DNA of 22,835 bases from a virus: positions 1 to 22,835 of the IMG/VR virus record IMGVR_UViG_3300031705_000055; one strand, given 5' to 3'. Below, piece by piece: positions 18,334-22,591 of this stretch. The position numbers and the translations under genes were made by a program. Positions within the stretch are counted from its first letter, which is position 1. Each line of letters opens with the position of its first letter. The notes below the pieces were generated by a model that made no database searches, was not told where the DNA came from, and saw only the letters and a program-made list of their open reading frames with translations.

Positions 18334-18552
18334 ATGAACGAAAAAGGAAGAGGCTGGATACCTCAAACAAAACTACAAGTGTTATTCTTTAGCACTTACA
18401 CAACGAAGAAAGCAGCAAGTGTAAACATGGGGGTTACAGTTACAACCCTCCGCTTGTTGTTTGGTAGAGAAGATAGATTCACTTACAGCCAACTTAAACA
18501 ACTATCAAAAGATAGTGATGTAAAACTAACAGACATAATCAAACTAATATGA
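18334..18552 (+). CDS. Small HTH (Cro/CI-like) putative regulator
   Basis: 72 aa from ATG 18334, one base after the preceding stop; an in-frame ATG at 18289 would overlap the previous gene. The region TKLQVLFFSTYTTKKAASVNMGVTVTTLRLLFGREDRFTYSQLKQLSKDSDVKLTDIIKLI reads as a compact five-helix XRE-type domain, with KAASVNMGVTVTTLRLLF as the helix-turn-helix. A repressor or activator of the nearby TTAG promoters is possible. Stop overlaps the next ATG as ATGA. Confidence 0.6.
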   Translation: MNEKGRGWIPQTKLQVLFFSTYTTKKAASVNMGVTVTTLRLLFGREDRFTYSQLKQLSKDSDVKLTDIIKLI

Positions 18553-19025
18553 AAGATCAATATTTTGAAAAGCTAATTACGCATTCAGCAAAGATAAACA
18601 AAACATTTGCAGGTGCTTTACTAGATAAGGGAAGACAACAGTTTGACGTTGAGTCAAGAAATATGTGTTACAATGTATTAAGAAAATTGAATTGGAGTTT
18701 GCCGGACATTGGCAATAGATTCAATAGAGGTCATGCTACTGTTATACACGGGATTAAGAACCATGATATTGCTTATGCGAGAGGTGGGTACTATATGAAC
18801 AACTATGATGACTTAGTCATAAGAATGGCTGACAATACAGAGATGGAAAAGATTGAAAACACTAACTACATCGAAAAGAATAGAATCAAGTTCGAGTTAC
18901 TAGAAGATTCAAACGTAAAGCTAAAGGAAGAGCTATTCGATATTAAAAAAACAACAAGGCTTTTATTACGATCAATCAAAGAACAACAATCATTAACCAA
19001 TTTATTAAACAAATCATGCAGTTAA
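18549..19025 (+). CDS. Stand-alone DnaA domain IV-like DNA-binding protein
   Basis: 158 aa. Residues 34-72 (VESRNMCYNVLRKLNWSLPDIGNRFNRGHATVIHGIKNHD) match the DnaA C-terminal DNA-binding domain: the 'SlpeIGxxFgxRxHtTVxhaixkI' core is seen as SLPDIGNRFNRGHATVIHGIKNH. No AAA+ domain, so it cannot be a full DnaA. The C-terminal half (about 100-158) is a charged coiled coil, probably for oligomerisation. It lies upstream of the replication initiator, and may bind origin or promoter DNA. Coupled to the HTH gene by ATGA and overlapping the next gene by ten bases. Confidence 0.75.
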   Translation: MKDQYFEKLITHSAKINKTFAGALLDKGRQQFDVESRNMCYNVLRKLNWSLPDIGNRFNRGHATVIHGIKNHDIAYARGGYYMNNYDDLVIRMADNTEMEKIENTNYIEKNRIKFELLEDSNVKLKEELFDIKKTTRLLLRSIKEQQSLTNLLNKSCS

Positions 19026-19378: not shown

Positions 19379-19411
19379 GGAGGAGCTTTAAGTAGTTCCT
19401 CCTTTTTTTTT
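19379..19411 (+). terminator. Intrinsic terminator closing the early operon
   Basis: Stem ggaggagct (19379-19387) with agttcctcc (19394-19402), nine pairs with one G-T, loop ttaagt, then nine T (19403-19411). Very strong. It ends the operon running from the promoter at 17485. Confidence 0.92.
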
Positions 19412-19467: not shown

Positions 19468-19529
19468 CATAACTAAATTTTTAATACTACCACTAAAACC
19501 CTCATTGTCACGTGAGGGTTTTCTTTTTT
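19468..19529 (+). ncRNA. Candidate short RNA 1, promoter-to-terminator unit
   Basis: Expected transcript from the promoter at 19431-19462 to the terminator hairpin 19495-19522 with its T tail: about 60 nt. It contains no ORF of note. The start is an estimate, six to eight bases beyond the -7 box. It might be a regulatory RNA, or the remains of a decayed gene between promoter and terminator. Confidence 0.45.
19495..19529 (+). terminator. Perfect hairpin terminator
   Basis: Perfect ten-pair stem aaaaccctca (19495-19504) with tgagggtttt (19513-19522), eight-base loop containing tcacg, then cTTTTTT to 19529. Confidence 0.88.
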
Positions 19530-19570: not shown

Positions 19571-19575
19571 ACCCA

Positions 19576-19655
19576 TCGAGTAGAGGCGATACTTATAACA
19601 TTTTTACAAAAACCTATTTCAGCGAGCCCTCTACCTCCTGAGATAGGTTTTTTTT
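19576..19655 (+). ncRNA. Candidate short RNA 2 or attenuator leader of initiator gene
   Basis: About 80 nt between the promoter at 19539 and a terminator-like hairpin (19608-19655). GTAGAGG (19580-19586) is perfectly complementary to CCTCTAC (19628-19634) in the hairpin's loop, so the RNA could fold into a pseudoknot. Read-through beyond it would transcribe the initiator gene at 19674, so it could be a transcription attenuator; alternatively it is a free small RNA. Confidence 0.5.
19608..19655 (+). terminator. Long-loop terminator ahead of initiator gene
   Basis: Stem aaaaacctatttc (19608-19620) with gagataggttttt (19640-19652), thirteen pairs including one G-T, a 19-base loop and T to 19655. 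Ends 18 bases before ATG 19674, so the initiator depends on read-through here or on an unseen promoter. Confidence 0.8.
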
Positions 19656-19673
19656 ATACCAAATAGTTAAATT

Positions 19674-20480
19674 ATGAAAATCAAATCCGTATTAAGTCAG
19701 GGAGCGTTTTGGCAAATCAATAAGTCATTAGCTCAAAAGGTAGGTTTAGAGTCTGCTTTATTATTATCCGATCTTATAGATAGGGAATCTTATTTTGAGG
19801 GTAGAGATATGTTGATTAATATTAATGGTGAAGGTTATTTCTTTGTAACTAGTAAGCAGATAAGCGATGCAACTACGTTATCATATAGGAAACAAAAGAA
19901 GTGCATTGCAGTGCTTGAAGATGAAGGAATGATTAAGACTTTTTTGCGAGGTGTTCCTGCAAAACTACATTTTACTATATGCGAAAGCAAGATTTGGCAA
20001 AGTGTAAATACTAGTATTAGCGAAACGCTAAAACTAGATTTAGCGAAAACGCAAAACAAGAGTGAGCGAAACGCTAAAACTATTAATAATAATAAAGAAT
20101 TAATAATAAAGAATAATAATAAAGAACAATATAAAAAGGTTGAGAATTATTTTGACAATATTCTGATAGATAATTTATTTAAAGAATTTTTAATATTAAG
20201 AGTATCTTTAAAAGCTAAAAACACAGATAGGGCTGTAGGGCTTATATTAAAAAAATTAGAAGGACTATCTCCAGAACTACAAACGGAGATGCTAGAGCAA
20301 TCAATTGAGAACAGTTGGAAGAGTGTATTCCCTATTAAAAAACAATTCAACAAAGCAGAACCTACAAGCCTAAGCAAACACTACTTCCCTGATATGTTTA
20401 AAAAGGAAGAGAACCCTTTACCGATAGAAACAAAGATTCTAAGCACTGGAGATATGAACGACTTTTTTAGTAAACCATAA
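19674..20480 (+). CDS. Replication initiator protein (winged-helix type), contains origin
   Basis: 268 aa. The N-terminal domain (about 1-105: FWQINKSLAQKVGLESALLLSDLIDRESYF ... GEGYFFVTSKQISDATTLSYRKQKKCIAVLEDEGMIKTFLRGVPAKLHFTI) is the winged-helix domain of phage replication initiators and replisome organisers; the 'Q..l..L...GmI....rGvPak' end is typical. A low-complexity Lys/Asn linker (about 112-155) follows and contains, at DNA level, the iterons and AT-rich 13-mers of the proposed origin. The C-terminal part (about 156-268) is helical and might contact the helicase or its loader. Compare lambda O, where the origin also lies inside the initiator gene. Confidence 0.75.
   Translation: MKIKSVLSQGAFWQINKSLAQKVGLESALLLSDLIDRESYFEGRDMLININGEGYFFVTSKQISDATTLSYRKQKKCIAVLEDEGMIKTFLRGVPAKLHFTICESKIWQSVNTSISETLKLDLAKTQNKSERNAKTINNNKELIIKNNNKEQYKKVENYFDNILIDNLFKEFLILRVSLKAKNTDRAVGLILKKLEGLSPELQTEMLEQSIENSWKSVFPIKKQFNKAEPTSLSKHYFPDMFKKEENPLPIETKILSTGDMNDFFSKP
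20017..20084 (+). repeat. Three iteron-like repeats, 23-bp phasing
   Basis: AGCG cores begin at 20019, 20042 and 20065, exactly 23 bp apart. Copies 1 and 3 share 18 identical bases (AGCGAAACGCTAAAACTA); copy 2 is AGCGAAAACGCAAAACAA. The outer copies contain the inverted repeat TAGCG/AGCG-AAA-CGCTA. The three copies fall in three different reading frames of the initiator gene, so the repetition is not protein-driven. Probable initiator binding sites. Confidence 0.8.
20087..20126 (+). repeat. Three AT-rich 13-mers, candidate DNA unwinding element
   Basis: TAATAATAAAGAA occurs perfectly at 20087-20099, 20101-20113 and 20114-20126; spacings are 14 and 13 bases. Only three bases in 40 are G or C. 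They follow immediately after the iterons, giving the standard initiator-site plus unwinding-element order of a replication origin. Confidence 0.8.
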
Positions 20481-20530: not shown

Positions 20531-21205
20531 ATGAAGGAAATAGGAAAAGAACCAAGCGATCAACTATTAAAATTCTGTGAACTAACGATTAATAAATGCT
20601 TGTTTGAGATGAGCCAAAAGAAGTCTTTAGAAGATGCCTCAATAATGGCGAACATATTAATGACTGATTTGAACGACAGCTTCTACAGACTAACTCAGCA
20701 AGATGTAGTTCAAGCATTCCATAGAGGAGTAAGAACAGGAGAACAGTTAGCAATCAATCCTCGAACGTGGTGTAACTGGTTAAATTCTCAGAAGTTGAAA
20801 TCTAACGCCACACGCATCAATTCATCACAGCTTAACGAGAAGATGTTAATTGAAAGTAAATGCAGTAGCGTTGATAAAAAGCAGGTTCTGAAGGATTTCT
20901 TAGAGCTTTGTGTAATTGAACCATATGAAGAATATTGCAAAGATGAAGACATTATACTGCAAGGAGTCAATCAAATATTCATTTGGCTTGAGAAAAACGG
21001 CTTTCTATTTGTATCAGACGAGGAGAAGGAAAAGATTTGGACAAAGGTACAAGGCACGATTAAGAAGCGGAAGATGTTCACGCATAACAATGAGAAGCAA
21101 TTCCATCCAGTAATTATGTGCAGAGAATACGCCATCATGAATTTATTCAAAGAAATGCGTGAGTCAAAAGTTGATTTGCGAAGTGAAATTTTAAAAGCTA
21201 TTTAA
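20531..21205 (+). CDS. Replication accessory protein, possible helicase loader
   Basis: 224 aa, nearly all helical and charged. It contains MANILMTDLNDSFYRLTQQDVVQAFHRGVRTGEQLAINPRTWCNWLNSQKLK (40-91), then helices to the C-terminus ending VIMCREYAIMNLFKEMRESKVDLRSEILKAI. The segment 'LxxdLxxxFxxLTxxdVvxAFxxGvRxxexxxINxrTWxxWL' is one I associate with proteins next to replication initiators in Bacteroidota phages, and position after the initiator and origin fits helicase loading. No AAA+ or P-loop is present, so it is not a DnaC-type ATPase. Function unproven. Promoter directly upstream; two bases separate it from the next gene. Confidence 0.6.
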   Translation: MKEIGKEPSDQLLKFCELTINKCLFEMSQKKSLEDASIMANILMTDLNDSFYRLTQQDVVQAFHRGVRTGEQLAINPRTWCNWLNSQKLKSNATRINSSQLNEKMLIESKCSSVDKKQVLKDFLELCVIEPYEEYCKDEDIILQGVNQIFIWLEKNGFLFVSDEEKEKIWTKVQGTIKKRKMFTHNNEKQFHPVIMCREYAIMNLFKEMRESKVDLRSEILKAI

Positions 21206-22108: not shown

Positions 22109-22591
22109 ATGAAGAAATGTACGAAATGCAATATAGATAAAGACTTAATAGATTATCCTAAGCAATCTAGTAAAAAGTCAGGGTTAGCTTCTCAGTGTAA
22201 GAAATGTGATAATTTTAGAAATAGAATTTACCACCTATCTAACTTAGCAAAATCTAATATTAAAAGTAAAATATACCGAGATTCACTTAAAGAAAATGTT
22301 GTGTATAGAGTTTCAGTCGAAGGTAAAGGTTCTTATATTGGAAGTACGACTTGCGGACTACTAGCAAGGTTAGGACACCACAAAGGGTACTTATGTAGAG
22401 GTGAGCATAAAAACCATAAACTACAAGCCATATATAATAAGTTAGGCTGGGATGTGTTTAAATTCAAAGTCATAGAAATATTAGAATCGGATGTAGACCT
22501 AAAGGTTAGGGAGCAATACTATATTGATAACAATAAAGAGTCATTAAACATAGCAACGGCTAACAAAAAAACTAAAACAATACTAATCTAA
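22109..22591 (+). CDS. GIY-YIG endonuclease with Cys4 N-terminus
   Basis: 160 aa. An N-terminal zinc-ribbon-like unit with Cys4, Cys7, Cys30 and Cys33 (CTKC ... CKKC) is followed by a GIY-YIG domain (about 63-150): VYRV (65-68, in place of GIY), YIG (76-78), catalytic-type Arg87 in LLARLGHHKGYL, and Glu135 in VREQYYID, then LNIATA. Phage proteins of this type are usually homing endonucleases, either free-standing or in introns. The A-rich leader (aacgcaaaa) precedes the ATG. Being a likely mobile gene it may have been inserted between the small ORF and the next gene. Stop overlaps a hairpin. Confidence 0.8.
   Translation: MKKCTKCNIDKDLIDYPKQSSKKSGLASQCKKCDNFRNRIYHLSNLAKSNIKSKIYRDSLKENVVYRVSVEGKGSYIGSTTCGLLARLGHHKGYLCRGEHKNHKLQAIYNKLGWDVFKFKVIEILESDVDLKVREQYYIDNNKESLNIATANKKTKTILI

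Follow-up and report, generated by a model that had tools for sequence, protein, structure and literature searches.

The window, by which we mean the whole stretch of DNA that has been analysed, is a linear fragment represented by a virus record of 22,835 bases. The features on which the following description builds have been located or predicted at these positions:

19575-19657: leader RNA ahead of the initiator start, following a TATATTTG-like promoter element (recognised by hairpin and loop pairing)
19674..20480, + strand: O-like replication initiator gene, 268 aa (PHROG 678, PHROG 428, Flavobacterium psychrophilum phage relatives)
19674..20027, + strand: predicted winged-helix N-terminal DNA-binding domain, about residues 1-118 (AlphaFold2 and PDB fold matches)
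19884..19922, + strand: predicted recognition helix, residues 71-83 (secondary structure of the model and alignment column)
20019..20034, + strand: iteron 1, AGCGAAACGCTAAAAC, dyad core 20019-20029, AGCG-AAA-CGCT
20042..20057, + strand: iteron 2, AGCGAAAACGCAAAAC, imperfect dyad core AGCG-AAAA-CGC
20065..20080, + strand: iteron 3, AGCGAAACGCTAAAAC, dyad core 20065-20075, AGCG-AAA-CGCT
20081..20140, + strand: A+T-rich putative DNA unwinding element (nearest-neighbour stability)
20087..20126, + strand: three perfect TAATAATAAAGAA copies with starts at 20087, 20101 and 20114 (sequence)
20142..20480, + strand: C-terminal domain, common to initiators with unrelated N-terminal domains (alignment and swap junctions)
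20531-21205: conserved ORF directly after the initiator, 72-88% identity in relatives

The ORF at 19674-20480 matches PHROG 678, described as 'replication initiation O-like', with an E-value of 7e-19 and PHROG 428 with an E-value of 3e-13. Its residues 1-123 share 45% identity with the initiators of cultured Flavobacterium psychrophilum phages, and the host of the phage is probably to be sought among Flavobacterium-like bacteria. In the AlphaFold2 model of the N-terminal domain the structural elements follow each other in winged-helix order, with pLDDT values of about 84-94 across residues 21-110. Fold matches of this model in the PDB include 4pql, 4pt7, 5kbj and 4pta, which, partly from their entry titles, we take to be RepA-type initiators; their E-values range from 0.002 to 0.02, none being below 0.001. 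Plasmid Rep initiators and a Rep-DNA complex are among the best matches, at this modest significance. A PDB sequence search has returned chance-level matches only, and no relative has been found in the bacterial genome contigs searched. The C-terminal domain carries no Pfam name and probably contacts the replication machinery.

The starts of the three iterons, 20019, 20042 and 20065, follow each other in exact steps of 23 bp and fall in frames 0, 2 and 1 of the initiator ORF, and the array begins at codon 115, about 350 bp into the gene. Spacing and frames agree with the initial annotation, in which three AGCG-core repeats in exact 23-bp phase had been assigned to three reading frames, and the AAA-centred palindromic core that had been noticed in two of them is a perfect dyad in iterons 1 and 3. 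The iteron triple scores 40/48 and is the top-scoring tandem array in the window, the other ORFs of which reach repeat scores of 31 at most. Synonymous resampling has yielded a maximum of 35 and synonymous codon permutation of the initiator a maximum of 36, so that 0 of 2000 trials have attained the observed score under either scheme, in line with the earlier proposal that selection acts here on the DNA.

Immediately adjoining the array, position 20081 being the first base 3' of iteron 3, begins the DNA with the lowest stability in the window; according to nearest-neighbour energies, the least stable stretch begins at this base whether its length is set to 40, 55 or 70 bp. The composition of 20084-20140 is 37 A, 14 T, 5 G and 1 C. 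Three perfect tandem 13-mers had been described in this tract, and the TAATAATAAAGAA copies are indeed perfect although not strictly tandem, as they are spaced by 14 and 13 bp, a single base separating the first copy from the second (frames 2, 1, 2). The exact 13-mer has decayed in the related sequences L005, L020, L024 and L031, in which the extreme low-stability tract has been retained at the same place. Because the 13-mer decays in relatives while the tract persists, the conserved feature is low duplex stability and not the three 13-mers. The suggested parallel to the three 13-mers of oriC is consequently weak, the unit lacking conservation, and we have dropped it as a specific homology. 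The 50 bp with the lowest stability in the initiator gene are, for most relatives, situated at or directly 3' of the repeat end; L011 is an exception, in which they lie slightly downstream of the repeats.

Relatives have been obtained from scans of viral contigs (L numbers) and are of two kinds. Type A initiators have the same N-terminal domain as the window, and type B initiators carry a different one (HTH_36, PF13730) on the same C-terminal domain. Type A N-terminal domains are also combined with several other C-terminal domains (L021-L025, L031 and phage Fpv5). In a scan of the linker DNA for triple repeats at spacings of 16-34 bp, the top spacing has been 23 bp in 13 of 14 representatives and 24 bp in L010, whereas among control stretches of equal length drawn from these contigs 23 bp has come out on top in 28/850, and none of the 850 has reached the 23-bp score of its own locus. 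Synonymous shuffles have given p values of 0.001-0.005 for the majority of type A genes that do not belong to the Flavobacterium phage group, of 0.01-0.12 for the Flavobacterium phage group together with its nearest relatives and of 0.001-0.08 for type B genes; the Flavobacterium psychrophilum phage group is characterised by weak iterons (p 0.03-0.12) and a shorter linker. The AGCG iterons have been kept in L005 and L021, and another iteron in equal phase is present in L006, L020, L024 and L031. A loss of the repeats with retention of the linker, which the initial annotation had named as an observation speaking against an origin, has thus not been encountered in these relatives. Further arrays of 22-24 bp have been found in phages of Lactobacillus, Fusobacterium, Eggerthella, Lysinibacillus and Pseudomonas, within initiators that are O-like or HTH_36-like, and in the same scan Funu2, PMBT4, ElaS and EW have shown no clear even spacing. 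Iterons are visible within the genes of the related-type initiators L059, L060, L061 and L062 (Lysinibacillus, Pseudomonas, Fusobacterium and Lactobacillus phages), which bear no origin label in the retrieved annotations, and the initiator gene of Pseudomonas phage Skulduggery contains CCCCTTCGGAAAAC four times.

The dyad cores of the iterons take lineage-specific forms, namely AGCG-AAA-CGCT in the window, L005 and L021, an AGAG-AAA-CTCT-like core in L020, TAAA-GAA-TTTA in L006, TAAA-AGA-TTTA in L024 and a GCC-AAAAC-GGC-like core in L031. With the dyad units delimited by eye, the arms are complementary at 51/72 positions, compared with 27 (sd 8.4) when the right arms are permuted among lineages, and 51/72 has been reached by 101 of 20,000 permutations, about the share that pairs like with like. 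Since the lineage-specific letters stay complementary, both dyad arms change jointly. In the protein alignment, residue 72 is Arg in the window, L005, L021 and L031, whose arms contain G/C, and His in the other lineages. From these few independent lineages one may hypothesize that Arg or His at residue 72 sets the iteron specificity. The relatives constitute a natural series of specificity changes, in which fold and phase are equal and the iterons differ, and as residue 72 tracks G/C versus other arms within this series, origin recognition becomes testable by swaps of residues and half-sites.

The N-terminal domain and the adjoining repeats have also been replaced as one block. L005 and L008 share 96% identity upstream of the initiator and likewise from L005:5444 through the C-terminal part; this position lies directly past the A+T tract, and the replaced block before it comprises the N-terminal domain, the iterons and the A+T tract. 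L006 and L044 are 96% identical upstream and 89% identical downstream of the replaced block, the junctions of which fall at the start codon and within or just past the A+T tract. As the swapped blocks of both pairs hold the DNA-binding domain as well as its target, the two move jointly. The very same event has been described for the staphylococcal plasmid pPR9, in which a pfam13730 helix-turn-helix with resemblance to a phage replication protein has taken the place of about 500 bp with the RepA_N domain and the origin (PMC5703833). A more far-reaching reading, to which we give somewhat less than even odds, is that phages exchange a portable origin cassette, made up of DNA-binding domain, iterons and A+T tract, onto a fixed C-terminal domain, and that the geometry of the complex itself prescribes the 23-bp phase, which is kept across DNA-binding domains without detectable homology (the type found here, HTH_36 and lambda O). 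If this reading were true, the iteron arrays of phages and the specificity of their initiators could be taken straight from the initiator genes. The swap of binding domain and origin also suggests a possible way in which related phages avoid competing for one origin, as has been proposed for pPR9 (PMC5703833).

Origins within initiator genes are known from lambda and Stx phages, in which the origin occupies a central position in gene O and comprises iterons and an AT tract (PMC7466680, PMC4488673), and from pSK41, in which it lies within rep (PMC5703833). As in the lambda origin, the iterons of the window separate the DNA-binding from the C-terminal part of the initiator gene, contain inverted half-sites around an A-tract and are followed on the C-terminal side by an A-rich, A+T-rich tract. 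The lambda iterons start at O codon 116 and those of the window at codon 115. The initial comparison with the lambda origin inside gene O, which concerned order and location, has held up. The annotated iteron spacing of lambda is 20/24/23 bp compared to exactly 23 bp in the window, and lambda O, used as positive control in the same spacing scan, has given 23 bp. Unlike the window with its three iterons, lambda has four, and the iteron sequences are unrelated. A sequence comparison of the window initiator with lambda O has revealed no homology (hhalign probability 0.1, E 0.58), and we have on this basis rejected an assignment to the lambda O family by descent.

The RepA_N plasmids pSK41 and pPR9 resemble the locus with its putative origin in that their origin lies in the middle of rep, within the linker, and in the natural replacement of N-terminal domain and origin with the C-terminal domain kept. 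The winged-helix fold of their N-terminal domain is predicted for the window initiator, Rep initiator structures being among the best PDB fold matches here. The substitute N-terminal domain of pPR9 even belongs to pfam13730, the Pfam family of the type B N-terminal domain. They differ from the present case, which concerns a phage with different iterons and a C-terminal domain unnamed in Pfam; the RepA_N domain (PF06970) has not been matched in the window initiator at E-values up to 0.1. PHROG 678 initiators of Lactobacillus delbrueckii, Fusobacterium and Eggerthella phages are about 22-30% identical at the protein level and possess in-gene arrays with 23- or 24-bp spacing in the same scan, but they differ in hosts and iteron sequences and have DnaC- or DnaB-type neighbours, whereas the next ORF of the window belongs to no named family.

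The locus can be read, with a probability of about 0.88 as judged from the sequence, as a phage origin of theta-type replication that lies within the very gene encoding its initiator. That the origin would lie inside this gene had been proposed in the initial annotation, and all tests open to sequence analysis speak for the proposal, namely the O-like family, the predicted winged-helix fold, the kept phase, the joint exchange with the DNA-binding domain and the least stable DNA adjoining the repeats; the comparison with relatives supports it strongly. Of the hallmarks of a lambda-type origin, those visible in the sequence are present, namely an O-like initiator gene, at least three phased iterons with inverted half-sites and an adjoining easily unwound A+T tract. 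In lambda O and pSK41 Rep, the N-terminal domain binds the iterons, the DNA bends and the A+T tract melts. In the window, the winged-helix N-terminal domain would bind each of the three iterons as a two-fold symmetric dimer, and with a phase of 23 bp, about 2.2 helical turns, a nucleoprotein complex may build up and bend the DNA. The resulting strain would open the adjoining A+T tract at 20081-20140, whereupon the C-terminal domain would recruit the replicative helicase or its loader. For this phage, all these steps, from the occupation of the iterons through bending and melting to the arrival of the helicase and the firing of the origin, are inferred. The GC skew of the window has no turning point at 20 kb and supports neither outcome, and that of phage Fpv5 is equally uninformative as an origin marker, because all genes face one way. 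Among DnaA boxes, TTATNCACA is absent from the window, and two TTWTNCACA and one TTATCCAMA have been found, none of them near 20 kb. As the window is a linear fragment, another origin may be situated elsewhere in the genome. In the literature searched, no described origin has been found for this phage group.

Other functions of the repeats have been weighed against this reading. Rep-type initiators commonly autoregulate, and the sites lie within the initiator's own gene and have the look of dimer sites, as would be expected for an operator at which the initiator blocks transcription of its gene while replication starts elsewhere. We consider this improbable, as the array is situated some 350 bp inside the gene, away from the leader promoter region, and an operator needs neither an extreme A+T tract directly 3' nor the order of iterons and A+T tract known from the lambda origin. 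Less probable still is a partition, packaging or recombination site bound by the initiator or another phage protein; other systems do use iteron-like arrays as centromeres or pac sites, but the present array moves with the DNA-binding domain of the initiator and not with other genes, and the family to which the initiator belongs is a replicative one. The peptide encoded by the tract, NNNKELIIKNNNKE, would make a plausible flexible linker, and Asn and Lys codons are A+T-rich, so that the repeats might be regarded as a mere low-complexity Asn/Lys-rich linker or as DNA slippage devoid of any DNA function. Such an origin of the repeats is very hard to reconcile with a spacing that is not a multiple of 3, with copies in three frames and with a score matched by 0/2000 synonymous recodings, and relatives show the same 23-bp phase with different sequences and complementary changes of the dyad arms.

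Of the features surrounding the putative origin, the leader RNA begins with a small hairpin (19575-19590). Its loop, GTAGAGG, is able to base-pair with the CCTCTAC at 19628-19634, which forms part of the loop of a terminator hairpin at 19611-19649. This loop-loop helix is paired in 8/8 sequences (window, L021, L022, L024, L025, L036, L077, L088), and two of its pairs have changed on both sides (GTAGAGG, GTGGACG and GTGGAAG with matching partners). A search of Rfam has returned nothing above the gathering scores of the families. From its predicted pairing, the leader RNA possibly controls the expression of the initiator, be it as an attenuator or as a small RNA; its L088 counterpart stands before a different ORF. 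Hairpins resembling intrinsic terminators are located upstream of the initiator and before the leader RNA (19379-19402 and 19495-19522), and two genes before the initiator, 18549-19025 encodes a small protein with a helix-turn-helix similar to DnaA domain IV (PF08299, E 1.8e-8).

The conserved ORF at 20531-21205 has no Pfam or PHROG match, and its structure model is of low confidence (pLDDT 44). It occupies the position of lambda P, to which it has no meaningful similarity (E 4.0). Judged solely by its position, the ORF could encode a helicase loader. A DnaB-type helicase has not been matched in 9/10 related contigs, most of which are fragments, and is present only in that of L031. At the end of the window, an ORF resembling GIY-YIG homing endonucleases has been observed (22109-22591).
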